DNA from: a virus
Length of the DNA: 29,689 nt
Virus record (IMG/VR): IMGVR_UViG_3300031576_000235
Location: 1 to 29,689 of that record
Reading direction: 5' to 3' (one strand)
Positions 15,362 through 29,615 of this stretch are shown here, piece after piece. How positions within the stretch are numbered: the first letter of the stretch is position 1; each line of letters opens with the position of its first letter. The notes under the pieces were generated by a model that was given only the letters and a program-made list of their open reading frames with translations, was not told where the DNA came from and did not search any database. The position numbers and the translations under genes are program-made.

Positions 15362-15738
15362 CAGTCATAGACCTCGATATAGGAGACCGTCTGCGTCCCC
15401 GATCCCACAATGCCGAGAATCGCAACGGTCGTCGGAATGGAAATGAACGCACCGACGATGCCGGCCAGCAGGAGCCCATTCGAGGTTGTCACGCCCGAGG
15501 GGCCGAGATAGACCGCCGTGGTCCCGTGATTTATCACGAGGATGCCGCGGCGGGTGGACCGCGCCGCCGCAATCGTCGTCCCGCCGGCCGTCGTGGTGAC
15601 CGACACCTGATTAACGGCGATATTGCCAACCCCGGTCTCCTTGACCACCTGCGCATCGGCCGGCTCGGTCTTCTGCGTCAGCTCCGTATTGAGCGTCGTG
15701 AGCCGTGCGGCAATCTCGGCAAATCCTGTCTCAGGCAT
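15361..15738 (-). CDS. Hypothetical 125-aa virion protein
   Basis: The N-terminus is a short helix with coiled-coil potential (FAEIAARLTTLNTELTQK). The rest is Thr/Val/Ile/Gly-rich beta sequence (VSVTTTAGGTTIAAARSTRR, GILVINHGTTAVYLGPSGV). The latter is a frequent pattern in phage structural proteins that surround or decorate tails. TGATG junctions join it to the collagen-like fibre before it and the repeat fibre after it, suggesting that the three are made together. Confidence 0.75.
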   Translation of the reverse strand: MPETGFAEIAARLTTLNTELTQKTEPADAQVVKETGVGNIAVNQVSVTTTAGGTTIAAARSTRRGILVINHGTTAVYLGPSGVTTSNGLLLAGIVGAFISIPTTVAILGIVGSGTQTVSYIEVYD

Positions 15739-16742
15739 CAGTCCTTCCGGATCGGGAACGCCGGATCGCCGCCGACGAGCTTCGCCCACTGAATGCGGTA
15801 GAGGTTCTCGTCGGTTTGCATCGGCAGCCACGTCCAGCCCGGCGGGAGCGGGTCGCTCTTGTACCACCACGCGACAGCCCCGGCCGGCACCGAACCCGGA
15901 GGGCCGGGCTCGCCGATGTGACCCGTCGCCCCGTCCTTGCCCCCTCGACCGTCGAGACCATGGGCCCCGTCGCGTCCGGGACGTCCGGCCGGACCCGGCG
16001 GCCCCGGTGCTCCGTCCTTGCCGTCAAGGCCTGGCAACCCGGCGGGGCCGTGTTCGCCGCGTTCACCGCGGTCGCCCTTCGGTCCTTCTGGGCCGATCGG
16101 TCCAGTCGCCCCCGGAGCCCCGTCGAGCCCGTCGCGACCATCCTTTCCCGGCCGGCCGGCGGAGCCGTCACAACCGGCAGGGCCGGACTCGCCGCGCTCG
16201 CCCTTCGGTCCTCGCTGGCCCGGATCGCCCTGTGGCCCCTGTTCCCCCCGCCGACCGGGAAGAATGCGCGACACGATATCGCGCTCATCGTCGGACGCAC
16301 CCGGCCCCGGCGGTCCGGGGGGTCCTTGCGACCCCTGAGCCCCAACCGGCCCGGGCGGACCATCTTTCCCCGGAACCCCTTGAATCCCATCACGCCCCGC
16401 CCGTCCAGGAGACCCCTGCGGACCGCTCTCGCCGTCTTTGCCGTCGCGTCCCGGTAGGCCCAGCTCCCCGCGCTCACCCTTCGGACCACGCTCGCTGGGA
16501 GCGCCAGCCGGGCCAACTGGCCCATCGCCCCCCCGAGGGCCGTCGACACCATCCCGCCCCTGCGGACCGCGCTCACCGTCCTTGCCGTCTCGTCCCGGCG
16601 AACTTGGCTCCCCGCGCTCGCCCTTTGGACCGCGCGCCCCGGGTTCGCCTTGCGGCCCCCGTTCCCCCTGGGGGCCTGGGGGTCCGCTCTCTACGACTTC
16701 GCGCTCGACCTCGGCGGCCGGGCCATAGCTACGTACCGGCAC
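15738..16742 (-). CDS. Collagen-like fibre protein
   Basis: The 334-aa product is Gly-X-Y repeat from about residue 20 to 285 (GPPGPQGERGPQGEPGARG and many more). It is broken once by a charged non-collagen insert, ASDDERDIVSRILPGRR, near residue 150. Collagen triplets trimerise, so this is probably a trimeric virion fibre shaft. The C-terminal ~50 residues (VPAGAVAWWYKSDPLPPGW) resemble a degenerate tail-collar-like knob. The N-terminal 19 residues would attach it. GTG start. The triplets GRDGKDGE and GPKGERGE recur, suggesting growth by duplication. Confidence 0.85.
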   Translation of the reverse strand: MPVRSYGPAAEVEREVVESGPPGPQGERGPQGEPGARGPKGERGEPSSPGRDGKDGERGPQGRDGVDGPRGGDGPVGPAGAPSERGPKGERGELGLPGRDGKDGESGPQGSPGRAGRDGIQGVPGKDGPPGPVGAQGSQGPPGPPGPGASDDERDIVSRILPGRRGEQGPQGDPGQRGPKGERGESGPAGCDGSAGRPGKDGRDGLDGAPGATGPIGPEGPKGDRGERGEHGPAGLPGLDGKDGAPGPPGPAGRPGRDGAHGLDGRGGKDGATGHIGEPGPPGSVPAGAVAWWYKSDPLPPGWTWLPMQTDENLYRIQWAKLVGGDPAFPIRKD

Positions 16743-19949: not shown

Positions 19950-21239
19950 TCAGTCGATGTGGGAGACCACGACTGAAGCCGTGACTCCATCGAGCCTGAA
20001 GCAGGTGTTCGGCTTCTCGACGACCCAGTTCTCCCAGCGGCGGAAGAACGCCTCATAGCCGTCTTGCAGGCTCGAACCCGTCCCGAGCCGCTGGAGGACC
20101 GAGCCGTCTTCGTCCATCCACGAGCCTTTGTCCTCCGTGTAACGGACGAAGCTGGACTCGTCGCAGCCGAAGACCATCCCGTACGGCGCGTACTTCTCTT
20201 CCCACAGCTCGATCCCGCCGAAGGTCAGCGGGCGCTTCTTCGCTGCGACCGTGCCGGCATCGGGCCGGTTCAGATCGCCTCCCATGTAGCGGCGTCCGTC
20301 GTCCGTCATGGCGATGTAGGCCCGTCGCACGGAGTGGTGCATGATGAACTTTGAGATTTCCCCGTCGCCGCGCTGGTCGGCGAGGTCGATCCCGCGCTGC
20401 ATGACGTCGGACGAGAGCGCTCCCACCGAGCCGATGACCGTCGACTGCGTGCTCGGATAGGTCGTGCGGTTGACGTTCATGTAGGTGGCGACGTAGGTGG
20501 CGTCGTCGATCCCGCCGAGGAGCCCCATCGGATCCTTGACGTATGAGGTGTCCGACACGTCGGTGAGCGCCGCCTTGTTGGCGCGCACGACGTAGTTGTT
20601 GTCGACCGGCCCCGACGTCGAGGTGCCCGTGGTGAACGTGGTGCCGGCCGCCGGAACCGTGACGACCGTCTCGTCCGCGGAAGCCACGATCGCGCCCGTC
20701 GCCGCCGTGACGAACGTCACGAGATCCCCGGCGTTGATGAACCGGGTGCCGTTGGTGGCCCCCGCCACCCCGCCGGGCGAGTCCACCGTCACGGTGGTAC
20801 CGGTCGAGGTGCCGTTGACGTAGGCGAGAATGCCGCGGCCGTCGTGCAGGATCGCGCGAGCGAGGTAATTGCGCAGGTCTTTGACGAGGCCCTGCATCTC
20901 GGACTCCATGATCGACACGAACGCCGAGCGGGGACCCTGGCTCGCCTTCATGATCTGCGTCGAGAACTGCACGCGCCCGCCCGTGTACTTCATGGGGATG
21001 CGGACGGTGGCGTACTTCTGCGCGCCGGCCGGGGGCAGTGCCCCCATCTCGGCGTAGGAGCCGACGCCCGAGTTACGGCCGACGTGGGCCGGGTACTCGA
21101 CGAAGCGTCCGCCCCATTCCTTCGCGTCCCGCTCCTCGAACATTTCGAGGGTGCGGAACTTGTGCGGGATCAGTTCCTTGATCTCGCCGTAGACCGTTTT
21201 GAGGATTTCGTCGGCGGTGGAGGTATCAGTACCGGCCAT
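19950..21239 (-). CDS. Major capsid protein (HK97-fold type)
   Basis: The 429-aa product begins with a helical segment (TADEILKTVYGEIKELIPHK). KEWGGRFVEYPAHVGRNSGV and KYATVRIPMKYTGGRVQFS follow, the E-loop and N-arm-like strands of tailed-phage capsids. The spine-helix segment has SAFVSIMESEMQGLVKDLRN. A Thr/Val-rich beta insertion lies near residues 145-215. The C-terminal half carries KFIMHHSVRRAYIAMTDDG and KRPLTFGGIELWEEKYAPYG, typical of the A-domain. It directly follows the scaffold-like gene. GGAG lies 9 bases before the ATG. Order and length match other podovirus capsids. Confidence 0.9.
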   Translation of the reverse strand: MAGTDTSTADEILKTVYGEIKELIPHKFRTLEMFEERDAKEWGGRFVEYPAHVGRNSGVGSYAEMGALPPAGAQKYATVRIPMKYTGGRVQFSTQIMKASQGPRSAFVSIMESEMQGLVKDLRNYLARAILHDGRGILAYVNGTSTGTTVTVDSPGGVAGATNGTRFINAGDLVTFVTAATGAIVASADETVVTVPAAGTTFTTGTSTSGPVDNNYVVRANKAALTDVSDTSYVKDPMGLLGGIDDATYVATYMNVNRTTYPSTQSTVIGSVGALSSDVMQRGIDLADQRGDGEISKFIMHHSVRRAYIAMTDDGRRYMGGDLNRPDAGTVAAKKRPLTFGGIELWEEKYAPYGMVFGCDESSFVRYTEDKGSWMDEDGSVLQRLGTGSSLQDGYEAFFRRWENWVVEKPNTCFRLDGVTASVVVSHID

Positions 21240-22310: not shown

Positions 22311-24581
22311 CTACCCGGTCGCACTCGCCGCCCCATCGCGTTCGAGTTCGCCGAAATCCCCCTCCATTCGCTCCGGCGAACTCGACGTGTTCATGGGTTG
22401 CACCCGCGGCCCCGGCCTGGCGAGGAACCCGGCCATTGGGTTCGCCGGCTGCTGAATCCCCTGAAGGGCCTGGGCCTGGTGGATCATCAGGATGTCGTGC
22501 CATTCCTTGTGCTTGGCCGCCACCACCCGGATGATTTTGGGCAGTTGCAAGGCCCGTTCGGACTTCAAAAACGCTCCGTGCTCTTTCGAGTGGATGGCGT
22601 GCCCGTCGATTGCCCCCCATACCTCGATCGCATCCGTGTCGATCCCGGCCCGACGGAGGATCTCGACGCTGGCCGACCAGTCGGATTCTTCCATCGCCGC
22701 CACGTCGTCCGGCGAGGCCGTCTGCCATCGCGGGTCGGTCGCCATCTGCGCGAAGGCTTCGTTCTCCATGATGGCCTTCTTCGTGTCGGCCTGCATGGAG
22801 GGGATCAGGTCGAGATGCCCGTATTTTTCGAGGATTTTGAACGCGGTCTCCGGGTCGGCGCGGTTCACGACGCCGAGCGCGATCAACTGCTCGATCTCGG
22901 CCCGCTCGGCCAGCGTCGATCGTGGCATGGACGAACCCGCCTCCGGGATCACATCGACCTGGCCCTGCAAGTCGGCCCCGACGAACTTTTCGACTTCCCA
23001 CTGTCCGTCTCGTCCCTGGATTTTACGGAAACGTTCCTCCGTCCAGTATTCGCGGGCGATTTCGAGTGCCTGCCTGGCCCATTCGGCATGCGCGTACTCC
23101 CACTCGATGAACAGCGGGCCGAACCGGCTCATTCCACGTTCCTGGAGGATTTGCAACGCGATGCCGGCCGAGACGCCTTCCGGCCGGGCTCCCTTGAGAA
23201 CGTCGAAGATGCCGGAGATGGCCTCGAAATCCTTGTCGATCATCTGGATCTGCTGCATGAACGACATCGGGATCGGCTGACCCGGAATGCGCCACGTACT
23301 CGGATGCGGCATGCCCTGTTGCCAGTTGATCCGGTGGACGGCCCCGGACTCGCCGCTAAATGCCTGGATGTTGGCCGCCGTCGGCACCATCCAGACTGGC
23401 GAACCCATGCGCATCCCGCACGCCTTGATGATCGACTGCCAGCGGTTCCGGTCGGCCTGAAGCAAGGCCAGATCGTTCGCGACCGTTTTCGGATACGCCG
23501 AACCGGGCACACGCTTCTGCGGGAAGTAGACGAACGGCAGGAACGGCTGTTTACTCCCGTCCGCCTGGCGCGCCCCGTACGGCAAGGGACCGGCGAACGC
23601 CACGGTCTCCCGGCCAAGCAGGATGGCGAGCAGTCCGTCCGGGTACGTCTCGTCGGGGAGCTGCCAGTACCAGCGTTCGGTCACCCGGTTGGCGACCTGC
23701 CGGGACGTGTTGACGAGGAACCGCTGGGTCGAGCCGTCGTCGAGGGCGGGACCGATCGTCGGCAGGGCCTCCCCGTACCACTCGTCCATGCCGGAGACGA
23801 CGTTCGGCTGGATCGACTCCTTGAGATGCGGCCAACGGGATTTCGCCGCGTCCTCGCTGACCGTCTTTTCCCGGAGGCAGGCTTTCTGCCGGGACCACTC
23901 GGTCACCGACGAATCGAAGTACATCTCGAAGATCGGCACGACATCCGAGTACATCTTGCCGCGCGGCACCGTTTCGGTCGCCTGAACGTACTGGCCACCG
24001 CATTCGGGACAGGGTGACAACAGGTCGAGGGACGGGGCTTCGGGCTCCCGTTCGGCCCCGCACCCGTCGCACTGCTCGACGATCAATTCACGGGTGCCGT
24101 GCACCGGATCGGGGTCATAGCCGGTTTCGCGCCACGCCCCACCGGTCAGGCCGACCCACCCCGCGAGGGCTTGCCGGGTCGTGCGGATCGATACCTCGTC
24201 CTCGACGACGGCAATGGCCCGCGAGGCCACGTCGGCGGCGGCCCGGTCTTCCGGTTCGTTCGGGGAGCCGGGCGCGAAGTGCAGCCGTGGCTCGATGCGC
24301 GCGAAGACGGAAATCAGCGCGTCCACCGTTTCGGCGAACTTGTTGGTGACCGGGGTCGGCGTGCCTTTCGTCAGGATGGAGGGACGGAAACGGTTGATGC
24401 GCCGGTCCCAGTTGATCCACTGCACGCCCTGGAAGAAGAGAATGTTCCGGTACGCGGCGCGGACGAACGTCTCGCGGCCCTTTTTCCATTCGTCCAGTCG
24501 TTTGGTGACGAGCGTGCGGATCGCGTCGTGATTGGCGTAGGGGTCCGGGGCTTGCGGCAGCTCAGTCTGCGGGTCAGCCAT
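22311..24581 (-). CDS. Portal protein (P22-like podovirus type) with a zinc-ribbon insert
   Basis: The 756-aa product starts MADPQTELPQAPDPYANHDA. Family-like features are RNILFFQGVQWINWD, VTNKFAETVDALISVFARIE, a long helical core with LLQADRNRWQSIIKACGMRM, and DFEAISGIFDVLKGARPEGV with AGIALQILQERGMSR. Length fits large podovirus portals. It forms the dodecameric ring for DNA passage. An unusual CDGC...CPEC group (Cys171, 174, 191, 194) suggests a zinc ribbon in the wing region. The ATG at 24581 was chosen because the longer extension overlaps the upstream gene in a shadow frame. Confidence 0.9.
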   Translation of the reverse strand: MADPQTELPQAPDPYANHDAIRTLVTKRLDEWKKGRETFVRAAYRNILFFQGVQWINWDRRINRFRPSILTKGTPTPVTNKFAETVDALISVFARIEPRLHFAPGSPNEPEDRAAADVASRAIAVVEDEVSIRTTRQALAGWVGLTGGAWRETGYDPDPVHGTRELIVEQCDGCGAEREPEAPSLDLLSPCPECGGQYVQATETVPRGKMYSDVVPIFEMYFDSSVTEWSRQKACLREKTVSEDAAKSRWPHLKESIQPNVVSGMDEWYGEALPTIGPALDDGSTQRFLVNTSRQVANRVTERWYWQLPDETYPDGLLAILLGRETVAFAGPLPYGARQADGSKQPFLPFVYFPQKRVPGSAYPKTVANDLALLQADRNRWQSIIKACGMRMGSPVWMVPTAANIQAFSGESGAVHRINWQQGMPHPSTWRIPGQPIPMSFMQQIQMIDKDFEAISGIFDVLKGARPEGVSAGIALQILQERGMSRFGPLFIEWEYAHAEWARQALEIAREYWTEERFRKIQGRDGQWEVEKFVGADLQGQVDVIPEAGSSMPRSTLAERAEIEQLIALGVVNRADPETAFKILEKYGHLDLIPSMQADTKKAIMENEAFAQMATDPRWQTASPDDVAAMEESDWSASVEILRRAGIDTDAIEVWGAIDGHAIHSKEHGAFLKSERALQLPKIIRVVAAKHKEWHDILMIHQAQALQGIQQPANPMAGFLARPGPRVQPMNTSSSPERMEGDFGELERDGAASATG

Positions 24582-24589
24582 CGTCGTCC

Positions 24590-25027
24590 TCAACGCCGCC
24601 CGCCCGATGTCACCCGGGGCGCGTCGCTTCGATCGTTCGCCCATTGCGCCATCACGGCATCCCGCTCTGATTCGGCGAGCCCGATCTGATCCGCGAGATG
24701 CGCGCGGAGAAACGCGCCGTGCTCGTCCGTGAAACAGACCGCGTGGCGTGTCTTCGCGATGCTCAGTTGCACGCACGGCCCCGTCGCGATCGGCTCGCCG
24801 CCCGACGTGAGCCCTGCCGGGGCGGAGTCGCCCAGGGCGGGCGCGTGCCCGGGACAGAACGCGATCGGCGACGTGAATCCCGTCGGTGTCGCGTACGAGG
24901 CGAAGATCGTGTCCGGCTTTGGCCAGAGGCCGACGACCGCGCCGGCTTTGGCCTCGTTGCGCTCTACTTGCTGGACGACGGTGCGCCAGCGGAGCGTGTC
25001 GCACACGGCGCAGTGGGCAGGCTTCAT
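24590..25027 (-). CDS. Hypothetical 145-aa protein between terminase and portal
   Basis: Starts MKPAHCAVCDTLRWRTVVQQ, an N-terminal CxxC pair. A beta-rich centre follows (TIFASYATPTGFTSPIAFC, with a further CPGH) and a helical C-terminus (ESERDAVMAQWANDRSDAPR). The Cys and His arrangement could hold zinc. The ATG at 25027 overlaps the upstream stop (ATGA). Function unknown; its position suggests packaging or head-assembly timing. Confidence 0.7.
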   Translation of the reverse strand: MKPAHCAVCDTLRWRTVVQQVERNEAKAGAVVGLWPKPDTIFASYATPTGFTSPIAFCPGHAPALGDSAPAGLTSGGEPIATGPCVQLSIAKTRHAVCFTDEHGAFLRAHLADQIGLAESERDAVMAQWANDRSDAPRVTSGGRR

Positions 25028-25672: not shown

Positions 25673-25908
25673 GGCCACACCTGGTCGAGCGGCTGACCCG
25701 CTTCCCACCCCGCGAGGATGGCGAGCGCGACGTTGACCGCCGTGGCCTGATCGTCCGGGGCGCCGGAGAACACGAGCGTCGTGAACCAGCCGCACCGATT
25801 CGCGCCGACGCGCACGTCCGCACGCCGGCAGACGCGACGGATCTTCGCGAGCGCGGCGAGCTCCGCCTTCGGCGAGGTGAACCGCACGGGCAGCGACGTC
25901 TTCACCAT
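25669..25908 (-). CDS. Hypothetical 79-aa protein next to the terminase
   Basis: Alternating basic beta segment (TSLPVRFTSPKAELAALAKI, RRVCRRADVRVGANRCGWFT) and a helical end with ATAVNVALAILAGWEAGQ. The ATG at 25908 overlaps the terminase stop by seven bases; GTG two codons... one codon later is the alternative. It is the first gene after the terminase. No known family. Confidence 0.65.
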   Translation of the reverse strand: MVKTSLPVRFTSPKAELAALAKIRRVCRRADVRVGANRCGWFTTLVFSGAPDDQATAVNVALAILAGWEAGQPLDQVWP

Positions 25909-27572
25909 TCGTCCACCCCCTGCGCATAGTCCATCTCGCGCGATTCACGGACGCGCTGCATGTGGTAGGCGGCACGCAATTCCGTCCGGTCGAGCGGCGG
26001 AGCCCGGCGCCGCGCCCGCTGCCTGCGCACGTTGGCCTCGAACAGGAGGCGCGCCTCGACCTCTGGATCGTCCGGCCGCGGCGGCTCCTCACCGGCCGGC
26101 TTGAGACGCATCTGAAGCGAGTCCACGACCGCATCGAGCATGTCGTCGTGGGTATTCTCCCGATCGGGGCGCCACTTCTCGGCTTCGTCGAGGAACTCTT
26201 CGAGGACCGGCACGTCGTTCAGAATGCGGACCATCCCCTTCGCCCACGGGGGTTCGAGGGCCCGGATGCGCGTATTCTTGGCCGCCTTCGTGTCCCGTTC
26301 GAGTTTGTGGACCGGCAGGTAGTAGCCACGGTCATCACCTTCGGACGTGAAGAGACGCATGTAGATTTTGGCGAAGCCGATCGCCTCGAAGCCGATCGTC
26401 ACGATCCCCGGAGTCCGCGCGAAGGCATCATAGACCTGGGCGACCAGTTCTGATTCCGGCCACCGGGCCCGGCGGAGATCGAGGATCCACATGACGTTGG
26501 TCTGATCGAACCCGACGACGGCGATCGCGGAAAAATCCGCGTAGCCCTTCTCGGAGATGGCCGGGTCGACCGTCATCACCTTCCACATCGTGTCGAGGGG
26601 CGGCATCTCGTGCCGGGACATCACCTGGATTTTCGTGCGCGGGAAGTAGACGCTGCCGGGCGGCAGGGGATCGAGCAGACATTGGGCGGCGAATGCCGAG
26701 GGGCCGGCTTCCCGGAGAAAGTGTTCCACGAGCAACGCCGGGCTCCACTTCTCAGGATAGGTCACCCGGACCCTTCCGTACTCTGGATACCCCGGCACTT
26801 CGGCGCCGGCCGGATCGGGGTACCAGCACGCTTCCTCGAAGAGGCCGATGCCGCCATGACGCTTCGCGCGGCTCCGGAGGACGGCGTGATGATCGTCGTA
26901 GTGCCAGGTCGTGCCGGTCGTGTCCAGAGTCGCCCCGGGATCGAACAGGAACGAGGCCGATCGGACGAATTGTTTGACGTCCTCCCGCAGCTCGCGGGTC
27001 GCGTAGTTCTCCCGTCCCACAAGATCGTCGAAGGAGCCGTGGGTGTAGTGGCGGGAGGTGATCTCCCCGGAGATACCGATGGTCTCCACGGTCGCTTCTT
27101 TGGTCTTCCGCGTGCGCCTGACGGTGATGGCCCCCCGGGTCCACATCTCGGCCTGCCGTTCGGGATCCGCATACAGGATGTCGGGGAAGCACCAGAGCAG
27201 GAGCGGATGAACGAGCCCGGCCTTGAGTTCGGCCAGCATGCCTTCCGCGTTCTCGCTCTTGTTCGAGGCGATCAGGATGCGGGTCTGCGGGTCGTTGAGG
27301 ATCAGTTGGATATTCTTGCAGACAGTCAGGATGGTCGTCTTGAGGAACCCGCGGCTGACGAGGTAGAGGTTCTGGCGATAGGGCGTCGTCTGCACGAACT
27401 GACAGAGGCGGCGCTGCAATTCGCCGGGCTGATGCCCGGGCCGGGGTTGATACGTGCCGTCCGGCTGGCGCTCCTGGTTCAGCAGATCGAAGAGGTAGTA
27501 GAGGTCGTGCCGGGCGAGCCAGCGCATCGTCTGGCGCGCTTCTTCGTCGGCGGCCGAGACCGTGCGCTTCAC
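25902..27572 (-). CDS. terL: Terminase large subunit (packaging ATPase-nuclease)
   Basis: The 556-aa product has an N-terminal ATPase with SRGFLKTT at about residues 73-80, the variant Walker A of many phage terminases. TRILIASNKSENAEGML follows, and GSFDDLVGREN (Asp182-Asp183) is a likely Walker B. The C-terminal RNase H-like nuclease shows MTVDPAISEKGYADFSAI (Asp336), VTIGFEAIGFAK (Glu397) and HDDMLDAVVDSL (Asp476/477/480). It pumps DNA into the head at the portal and cuts it. The GTG start at 27572 has a GTGA junction; the long extension upstream is shadow. No small subunit is recognised in the window. Confidence 0.95.
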   Translation of the reverse strand: MKRTVSAADEEARQTMRWLARHDLYYLFDLLNQERQPDGTYQPRPGHQPGELQRRLCQFVQTTPYRQNLYLVSRGFLKTTILTVCKNIQLILNDPQTRILIASNKSENAEGMLAELKAGLVHPLLLWCFPDILYADPERQAEMWTRGAITVRRTRKTKEATVETIGISGEITSRHYTHGSFDDLVGRENYATRELREDVKQFVRSASFLFDPGATLDTTGTTWHYDDHHAVLRSRAKRHGGIGLFEEACWYPDPAGAEVPGYPEYGRVRVTYPEKWSPALLVEHFLREAGPSAFAAQCLLDPLPPGSVYFPRTKIQVMSRHEMPPLDTMWKVMTVDPAISEKGYADFSAIAVVGFDQTNVMWILDLRRARWPESELVAQVYDAFARTPGIVTIGFEAIGFAKIYMRLFTSEGDDRGYYLPVHKLERDTKAAKNTRIRALEPPWAKGMVRILNDVPVLEEFLDEAEKWRPDRENTHDDMLDAVVDSLQMRLKPAGEEPPRPDDPEVEARLLFEANVRRQRARRRAPPLDRTELRAAYHMQRVRESREMDYAQGVDEW

Positions 27573-27853
27573 GCCACCCCACCGTCGACCGCGTGCGTGG
27601 TGTCCTTGCGCCGGAGCAGTTTCGCCACGAGGTGACTCATCTCGTGGGCCACCGCATGTGCCTGGCGATCGTTCAGCCCGAGCCCGGCTCCGAACCAGAC
27701 CGTCGCCGTGGGGTGACTGGCGCATTCCGTGTTCAGCACCGTGACGGCGAGCACATCACCCTTCTGCGCGTACTCGGCCACGAGGTCGTCATCGACCCCG
27801 TTGACCACCCGGAGCCACGGGGCGCCGTTTTCGGACAGGTAGGTGAAGGTCAC
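27569..27853 (-). CDS. Hypothetical 94-aa protein with an HEMSH motif
   Basis: Beta-rich first half (MTFTYLSENGAPWLRVVNG, GDVLAVTVLNTECASHPTA), then a helix RQAHAVAHEMSHLVAKLLRR containing HExxH at residues 70-74. HExxH is the zinc motif of metalloproteases, but the protein is far shorter than any such enzyme known to me and no third ligand is clear, so catalysis is doubtful. The GTG start has GGAG about 6 bases upstream and overlaps the preceding mini-ORF. A GTGA junction leads into the terminase. Confidence 0.7.
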   Translation of the reverse strand: MTFTYLSENGAPWLRVVNGVDDDLVAEYAQKGDVLAVTVLNTECASHPTATVWFGAGLGLNDRQAHAVAHEMSHLVAKLLRRKDTTHAVDGGVA

Positions 27854-27929
27854 CGGCTCCGCGGGAGAACATGCGGCCGACGCTGGACCAGAAGCCCATC
27901 AGGGGGGCCACGCCGCCGTAGACGATCAT
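27789..27929 (-). CDS. Possible 46-aa mini-gene overlapping the HEMSH gene
   Basis: An ATG at 27929 makes an ATGA junction with the stop of the fibre-like gene and opens MIVYGGVAPLMGFWSSVGRM, then a basic tail. The last 22 codons overlap the next gene by 65 bases, and that part looks Arg/Pro-rich like shadow sequence. The junction and the first 27 residues are gene-like; the overlap is not. Uncertain. Confidence 0.35.
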   Translation of the reverse strand: MIVYGGVAPLMGFWSSVGRMFSRGAGDLHLPVRKRRPVAPGGQRGR

Positions 27930-29044
27930 GGCAGCACGTCCGTCACGAGGTAGAACACGATCGTGCCTTGGCTCAGATTGCTCGTCGCCCCGTCGCCCAG
28001 ATTGCCCGTGCCGGACGTGATCCGATAGGTGAGCGTCGTCGTTGCCGACCACGACATGAGCACCCCGTCGAAGAGTGCCCCGTTGGCCGACCGGGCGGCG
28101 GCGTTCATCGAGGCCCCGAGTTCGCCGTCGGCATCGCCGAACTGCGCCGTCGCCGCGTCGAGATCGAACGACAGGAGGAGCTGCGTCCCGCCGGCCGAAG
28201 TCCCCAGCGTCCCGGAGAGGGTCGTCGACGTACAGACCGCTGTGCAGGCGTACACGGTGGTCAGGTCGGCGATGACCCGCCGGAGGAACGTTTTGGCCGG
28301 CATGGTCGCAATCGTCAGGTCGCAGGTCGTGGCCGCGGCGACGCAGTTCGCCGAGGTGACCGTCACCTTGTAGACGAGCGTCCGCACCACGCCGACCGCG
28401 TTCACCGTCACGCCGGTCCCCGACCCCGCCGTGATGTTGCCGGCCGGCGCGATGTCGCCCTGTCCGGTGCCGCCGTTCGTCACCCCGACCACCCCGGCCG
28501 ACAACCGCTCGATCCCCGTATCTGCTGACCCCACCGCGTTCGCGGTCGAAGACCAGTGGTATTGAGCGCTGACAGCTATGGCGGTCCCCAACCCGCTCCC
28601 CACCGCTCCCCACGCTAACTGTGAAGTCCCGCCGGTCGATGCGAACGCCCAGATATTCGCCGCGGATCGGTAGAGACCGATCCCGGTTGCGGCATCCGAT
28701 GAAAACCGCATCGCCGGGTTCCCCGCCGTGCCGTCCGGCAATACCCACACCCCACCCGCCAGTTCCAGGGCGTTGCCCGTCTGGGTCAGCGTCAGGTCAC
28801 TGTCGTCCCAGTTGATGACCCCGCCCTCGGCCAGGAATAGATCGCTCCACTGAAGCGTCGCCGAGCCCAGCGCCGCCCCGTCGTTCGTGGCCGGCACCGG
28901 GGCCAGCACGAAAATGTTCGACGACGCCGGACTGATCCGCTGGGCCATCGCCGTGTAGGACACGCCGAACAGCAGGCCGAGGACGATCCCCGCCACCACC
29001 GCCCGACCCCACGAGCCTTTCGCGAGCGTCAGCGAGCGGAGCAT
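27926..29044 (-). CDS. Fibre-like protein with an export signal peptide
   Basis: The 372-aa product starts MLRSLTLAKGSWGRAVVAGI, a basic n-region then a hydrophobic core to residue 31, and AMA|Q, a good signal-peptidase I site after Ala34. The mature part carries tail-fibre motifs: DLFLAEGGVINWDDSDLTL, and NPAMRFSSDAATGIGLYRSA with NIWAFAST. The C-terminal ~150 residues are a beta domain with four Cys (SANC, TTC, VYAC, AVC) that could pair after export. Fibre-type sequence with a signal peptide is unusual. TAATG links it to the upstream gene. Role unknown: host surface display, superinfection effect, or a virion protein. Confidence 0.8.
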   Translation of the reverse strand: MLRSLTLAKGSWGRAVVAGIVLGLLFGVSYTAMAQRISPASSNIFVLAPVPATNDGAALGSATLQWSDLFLAEGGVINWDDSDLTLTQTGNALELAGGVWVLPDGTAGNPAMRFSSDAATGIGLYRSAANIWAFASTGGTSQLAWGAVGSGLGTAIAVSAQYHWSSTANAVGSADTGIERLSAGVVGVTNGGTGQGDIAPAGNITAGSGTGVTVNAVGVVRTLVYKVTVTSANCVAAATTCDLTIATMPAKTFLRRVIADLTTVYACTAVCTSTTLSGTLGTSAGGTQLLLSFDLDAATAQFGDADGELGASMNAAARSANGALFDGVLMSWSATTTLTYRITSGTGNLGDGATSNLSQGTIVFYLVTDVLP

Positions 29045-29538
29045 TAGCTTCGCCTCCCTGCATCGGTAAAACGTCTTTCCCCTGCCCCCACCCGCACCAT
29101 CCGGCAGCAGATCCCCTGGCACCGCGGACCGTGCGGCGTCACCGTCGCCTTGCTGGCGTTCTGCGGAGCCGCATACGCCCCAACCGTCATTAGCGGACCC
29201 GCCCGCTCTCCCAATTGTCGCTTCAAGCCCGTCACCTCGGCCGCCAGCACCTCGCAGTTCGCGCACCCCTTCCCGTTACGTCCATTACGTGCCGTTACGG
29301 CATTGCGTGCCGTTACGGCATTGCGTGCCGTTACGGCCGTTACGGCCGTTACGGGCGTTACGGGCGTTACGGCGGCCGTTACGGAGGGCGTTACGGCCGT
29401 TACGGAGCCCGTTACGGGCGTTACGGCGGGCGTTACGGCCGGCGTTACGGAGGCCGTTACGGCCTTCCGGCACACCAGACACCACCGCGGATGCTTCCCT
29501 GTTCGCCCCACACCGCACTTCGTGCAGGTCTCAGCCAT
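29044..29538 (-). CDS. Cys-rich protein with a Val-Thr repeat linker
   Basis: The 164-aa product opens with C5-x2-C8, then C20-x2-C23, a zinc ribbon. Residues 27-82 are (Val-Thr-x)n repeats (VTP, VTA, VTAVTAVTARNA). GCANCEV (C92, C95), a short coiled coil and a CQGICC end follow. AAAAAGGGG lies just before GTGATG; the ATG at 29538 is chosen. The repeat DNA is near-palindromic. The layout, a zinc ribbon joined by a flexible repeat to a second Cys pair, suggests a nucleic-acid-binding protein. It is first in the visible late unit. Confidence 0.7.
   Translation of the reverse strand: MAETCTKCGVGRTGKHPRWCLVCRKAVTASVTPAVTPAVTPVTGSVTAVTPSVTAAVTPVTPVTAVTAVTARNAVTARNAVTARNGRNGKGCANCEVLAAEVTGLKRQLGERAGPLMTVGAYAAPQNASKATVTPHGPRCQGICCRMVRVGAGERRFTDAGRRS
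29275..29461. repeat. Block of 16 GTTACG repeats
   Basis: GTTACG occurs 16 times (plus one ATTACG), mostly at 9- or 12-base spacing and twice at 18, in a 187-base block. Most copies extend to CGTTACGG. The reverse complement of GTTACG is CGTAAC, and the near-palindrome CGTTACG/CGTAACG makes Val-Thr codons on both strands. The block lies inside the Cys-rich gene. It could be a protein-binding array as well as coding sequence. Confidence 0.95.
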
Positions 29539-29615
29539 CACCCCTTTTTATACCCCCTCAGCGCTTTTCAGAACGCGAACGAACAGAGACGGGGGAGGCC
29601 AATGCCCAGGCCCCA

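Follow-up and report, generated by a model that had tools for sequence, protein, structure and literature searches.

A 7-bp DNA word repeated sixteen times inside a phage zinc-ribbon gene: a DNA-level array with a possible role in packaging

Selection very probably acts on the DNA word, rather than the peptide, of a dense repeat array in a phage genome fragment. The fragment, here called the window, is the whole stretch of DNA analyzed, an IMG/VR virus record of 29,689 bases with a structural module on the minus strand. Near its right end, sixteen exact copies of CGTAACG (CGTTACG on the plus strand) occupy positions 29274..29461 of the minus strand, inside a gene for a small Zn-ribbon protein; the (Val-Thr-x)n peptide that they encode looks like a by-product of the DNA array. 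Judging by the sequence and its counterparts in other phages, the array likely serves as a platform to which a phage DNA-binding protein binds at many sites, and it may, more tentatively, be an iteron-like set of sites that is bound by a phage protein and marks the genome for packaging in a pac-like manner. We infer protein binding, cooperative filling of the array and the packaging role.

The first-pass annotation had reported sixteen GTTACG copies in near-palindromic units at 9- or 12-base spacing: the count and coordinates are confirmed, all 16 copies being exact, and the 'CGTTACGG' unit is correct, since the base 3' of CGTTACG is G in 15 of 16 copies. The spacing holds for 12 of the 15 intervals; the other three measure 18, 18 and 19 bases, and each contains one decayed copy (on the plus strand, CATTGCG at 29319-29325 and 29301-29307 and CATTACG at 29283-29289, all within the minus-strand array). 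The 19-base interval shifts the frame, so that the last copy in coding order reads Gly-Arg-Asn-Gly instead of Val-Thr. That (Val-Thr-x)n can be read on both strands also proved right. Outside the array, the whole window contains no further CGTAACG; dinucleotide shuffles of the whole window give a mean of 3.24 copies (SD 1.88) and at most 9, against the 16 observed. As RNA, the array (29268-29467, minus strand) folds better than shuffled sequences (z -3.1, 2/200 as good), which is expected of near-palindromic units, and a search of Rfam for a structured RNA at the array returned no match.

The array lies, as first described, within a Cys-rich gene, the minus-strand ORF 29538-29044 (alternative GTG start at 29541), whose 164-aa product reads CTKC...CLVC (a Zn-ribbon-like N-terminus), the Val-Thr array, CANC and CQGICC; two CxxC pairs precede the array, which lies about 80-260 bp after the gene start, inside the coding sequence. 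The protein has zero matches in Pfam or PHROG. Its stop codon overlaps the start of the next minus-strand gene, 27926..29044 (TAATG), itself without a family match, and this overlap supports a real gene. The array sits 1.5 kb upstream of the terminase large subunit gene (25902..27725, minus; phrog_38, E 9.9e-65), with two genes in between; an ORF with the portal protein (22311..25004, minus; phrog_156) and the major head protein gene of the structural module (19950-21239, minus) follow. Neither an initiator gene nor a small terminase gene was identified within the window, which is a fragment. The structural module also encodes a 334-aa protein with collagen-like Gly-x-y repeats (15738-16742, minus), and near the left contig end a short ORF (97-303, minus; LWNYT...QYERVW) bears what we take to be a resemblance to the N-terminus of a phage RNA ligase.

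The closest relative among named phages, MW202554 (capsid 43% identity), is devoid of CGTAACG arrays; a terminase search in IMG/VR yielded zero relatives. Neither a protein-based search nor a search with a Zn-ribbon DNA pattern found a close homologue of the window gene, and the latter revealed no array-bearing relative. VTP-repeat proteins returned by the search with the host protein were rejected as homologues: they are unrelated structural proteins of aquatic phages with mixed codons. In L129-L191, mostly low-GC phages, long VTPVTP repeats lie between Cys-rich segments of structural-type proteins and are apparently a protein-level feature because their codons are mixed. In another record, an ORF that is rich in Zn-ribbon repeats and whose C-terminus is HNH-like (L404:2736-4109, minus) contains a repeat, CIKCGEPRDGKHPSYCKEC, that resembles the window Zn-ribbon.

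The array has the pattern expected when a DNA word is under selection. When the window protein was resampled synonymously with the phage's own codon usage, a mean of 0.76 copies was obtained, with a maximum of 6 in 20,000 draws, compared to the 16 present. The Val-Thr pairs of the array are encoded by GTA ACG in 15/15 cases, yet GTA makes up 5.4% of Val codons in this phage, and the two Val-Thr pairs outside the array use GTG. Finally, the spacers take ten forms across the 15 intervals while the 7-mer is invariant, and one copy is kept in another frame, where it specifies Arg-Asn instead of Val-Thr. The earlier proposal of an iteron-like DNA array with the protein as its by-product is therefore supported, by the resampling and by the recurrence of the same word in at least 69 unrelated, irregularly spaced arrays. 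Homologues that keep the Val-Thr repeat with different codons, the pattern named at the outset as contrary to this proposal, were not encountered: related arrays, which are not close homologues of the window gene, keep the DNA word and alter the peptide (RN, VT, other frames).

These arrays come from a scan of viral contigs for three CGTAACG copies with gaps of 2-11, which retrieved at least 120 stretches in at least 88 independent clusters, at least 69 of them irregularly spaced; the full listing for a control word of the same composition, CGATACG, comprises 44 clusters, of which 24 are irregular. Among the matches listed, CGTAACG arrays are concentrated in DNA-transaction genes. A strict basic motif, A.RQ.xYRxR, accompanies 29/69 of the irregular CGTAACG arrays among these matches vs 0/24 for CGATACG (p 2.6e-5); this and the other p-values given here are guides, not confirmatory, because the motif patterns (in several versions), the class B filter described below and the tests took shape as the analysis went on, and homologous loci are among those compared. 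In control loci, ORFs of this kind are too scarce for the motif to be informative. The association suggests that A.RQ.xYRxR may read the CGTAACG word.

Some CGATACG arrays also sit in initiator-like genes, which lack A.RQ.xYRxR (L193:1653-2711, L235:2161-3162, L241:6195-6902, L261:2353-3006), so in-gene arrays are not special to CGTAACG. The replication initiation gene of phage epsilon15 (L398:35179-35856), a distant relative, contains 8 of the genome's 18 copies of GCGGAC/GTCCGC, followed by a purine-rich AGAGAAGAGAAG tract. Because epsilon15 uses another word and the control word too is found in initiator-like genes, in-gene arrays built from different words look general. In bacterial genomes, a scan for dense arrays picked up largely tandem repeats of regular 9-bp period in host genes, along with two initiators (L416 and L420). 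No published account of the CGTAACG word or of such in-gene arrays was found in the open-access literature.

Most CGTAACG arrays among the matches listed lie in phage replication-initiation genes (class A), with PHROG annotations of replication initiation, primosomal, DnaD-like loader, replisome organizer and O-like proteins and the Pfam families Phage_rep_org_N, DUF1376 and DnaT. In 28 class A genes, picked as initiator-like hosts for the resampling and base-composition figures, 166 copies are present vs 26.2 expected under synonymous resampling, the word is read in more than one frame in 25/28, and the spacings, which peak at 10-12 bp, are indivisible by three in 86/127 cases. On the 3' side of these arrays GC is ~0.10 lower in the first 30-bp bin and ~0.15 lower in the second, and is back at background beyond them: an A+T-rich stretch follows within 60 bp, as in lambda O/ori. 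Each of 17 records with an initiator array has its pairs of the word confined to a single locus, at most split into parts separated by less than 500 bp, and a reversed control pattern has zero occurrences; the initiator arrays are 2.1-35 kb from terminase. The window shares with class A the 7-bp word, the irregular spacing of roughly one helical turn and the location within a gene; by contrast, class A hosts are initiators and an A+T-rich stretch usually follows, and the window shows neither.

A second setting (class B) emerged when array ORFs of up to 170 aa were filtered for A.RQ.xYRxR, a motif seen in initiators. The filter singled out eight genes (L080, L070, L081, L387, L482, L493, L089 and L027) from about six families, with L080/L070 and L081/L387 apparently homologous pairs; their neighbors were identified after selection. 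In 7/8 cases the array gene adjoins terminase genes, mostly together with a portal gene, at 0.1-2.2 kb from the array, although in L027 the terminase match is weak (E 4.6e-9) and the portal is not confirmed. The exception is L089: its array gene is part of a head/tail module, the terminase is 8.6 kb away, and an A+T-rich dip is present. A further small array ORF with the motif, L361, was left out of the count; no terminase was found in its record, and its inclusion would weaken the position rule. Class B arrays are closer to terminase than initiator arrays (p 0.0015-0.005, from distances read by hand in records that are possibly circular). The A+T-rich dip likewise divides the two settings, being present at 24/28 initiator arrays vs 1/9 small-gene arrays including the window (p 1.9e-4).

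The window falls into class B on the strength of its small array gene, its position in the packaging module, its Cys pairs (L081, L387 and L493 have similar Cys-pair N-termini before the array) and its missing dip: GC in the first two 30-bp bins 3' of the array differs by +0.03 and -0.03 from that of the window, and the lowest 60-bp stretch near the array is no lower than in 30% of random stretches. Like L080, L070, L081, L387, L482, L493 and L027, it combines a small array gene near terminase/portal genes with the absence of the A+T-rich dip; unlike them, it encodes a longer protein that has no significant match to class B proteins, and A.RQ.xYRxR is absent from every ORF of the window. A tblastn search of named phages with the small array proteins produced no useful relative.

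How might such an array work? The near-palindromic 7-bp word, set about one helical turn apart inside the small Zn-ribbon gene of the packaging module, would provide the sites; the reading frame would do no more than keep them mostly 9 or 12 bp apart, with the (Val-Thr-x)n linker as a by-product. Whether the Zn-ribbon protein or the product of a gene outside the contig, a DNA-binding protein of the phage would occupy the array, and the occupied array would mark the genome for terminase, as a pac site does. Packaging is favored over an origin because the array is near terminase and the A+T-rich element is missing; the position of seven of the eight small array genes is in line with this choice. 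Several facts stand against it: the window protein lacks the motif of the other small array genes and is separated from terminase by two genes, the small-gene group is few, partly made of homologous pairs and picked by motif, L089 breaks the position rule, and MW202554 has no array. There is a precedent in SPP1, where pac overlaps gene 1, the small terminase gene (PMC6316719). SPP1 has a packaging recognition sequence overlapping a coding sequence beside the terminase large subunit gene (PMC6316719), as the window would have if its array were a pac site; SPP1, however, has pacL, pacC and pacR in the small terminase gene, whereas the window has a 16-copy array in a Zn-ribbon gene. For partition, another role suggested by the first-pass annotation, no support was found.

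The main rival of packaging is a replication origin, in which the array would be an iteron set hosted by the Zn-ribbon gene and bound by an off-contig initiator; we consider this possible but rather unlikely. It draws on the same word arrays in many phage initiation genes with an A+T-rich stretch directly 3', on the single array locus per record and on the layouts of lambda ori and SPP1 oriL. In lambda, the iterons and A+T-rich tract of the origin occupy the middle of gene O, whose product gains residues with additional iterons, and Stx-phage origins have 6 iterons (PMC7466680). In SPP1 oriL, direct repeats in gene 38 are bound by a phage protein and accompanied by an A+T-rich unwinding element (PMC6316719). 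Lambda ori/O and the window are alike in repeated binding sites, predicted ones in the window, in the middle of a coding gene (PMC7466680), and oriL shares the direct repeats within a gene. The likeness ends there: of the hallmarks of a lambda-O-type origin, the window displays multiple conserved sites but neither the adjacent A+T-rich tract nor the initiator host, its putative sites being sixteen copies of a 7-bp word in a Zn-ribbon gene unrelated to any initiator, and oriL is located in the origin-binding protein's own gene, next to its unwinding element. Nor does the window contain an initiator gene. GC skew reaches its minimum near the start of the terminase gene in MW202554 and at the contig end beside the array in the window, which speaks for an origin; the MW202554 minimum may instead reflect transcription, because it coincides with a switch of gene direction.

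Next comes an operator array, i.e., sites through which a regulator, perhaps the Zn-ribbon protein, would control transcription of its own gene and of the structural operon. In favor of this, the array stands at the upstream end of a long run of structural genes that share one direction, in the gene of a putative DNA-binding protein, and the Cys-pair proteins of L493, L081 and L387 likewise precede arrays. This reading is improbable: the sites lie well inside a coding sequence rather than at a promoter, sixteen copies are many for an operator, and the word is common to phages with unrelated host genes. Least probable of all, and quite unlikely, is expansion of a Val-Thr linker by slippage or recombination, or a repeat kept at the protein level, with no DNA function: Tandem Repeats Finder does report overlapping periods of 9-54 bp in the array, repeated runs of identical CC/GC spacers make some local duplication likely, mixed-codon VTP-repeat proteins exist, and so do regular 9-bp CGTAACG tandem arrays in bacterial genes without a replication context, but differing spacers around an invariant 7-mer, the out-of-frame copy, the rare GTA codon used throughout and the reappearance of the word, in irregular arrays of mixed frame, at particular kinds of gene all oppose it.

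A broader proposal, speculative and doubtful as it stands, would unite the two settings: CGTAACG arrays may be the cognate sites of A.RQ.xYRxR, a short basic motif that would be transferable between phage proteins with no other relationship, so that the reader and its in-gene sites would be attached together to initiators, making origins, and to packaging-module genes, making packaging signals. The window would then be a variant in which the Zn-ribbon may be the reader.

A few model phages are known to have binding sites within genes, namely lambda in O and SPP1 in genes 38 and 1. What we describe is a single 7-bp word that turns up across unrelated phages, next to an unwinding-type element in one setting and without it in the other. 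The short basic motif and the DNA word make a testable pairing, and the case warns that some low-complexity 'RNAVT' or 'VT' protein repeats are DNA signals in disguise. For uncultured phages, CGTAACG arrays offer a sequence handle for origins and possible packaging signals.
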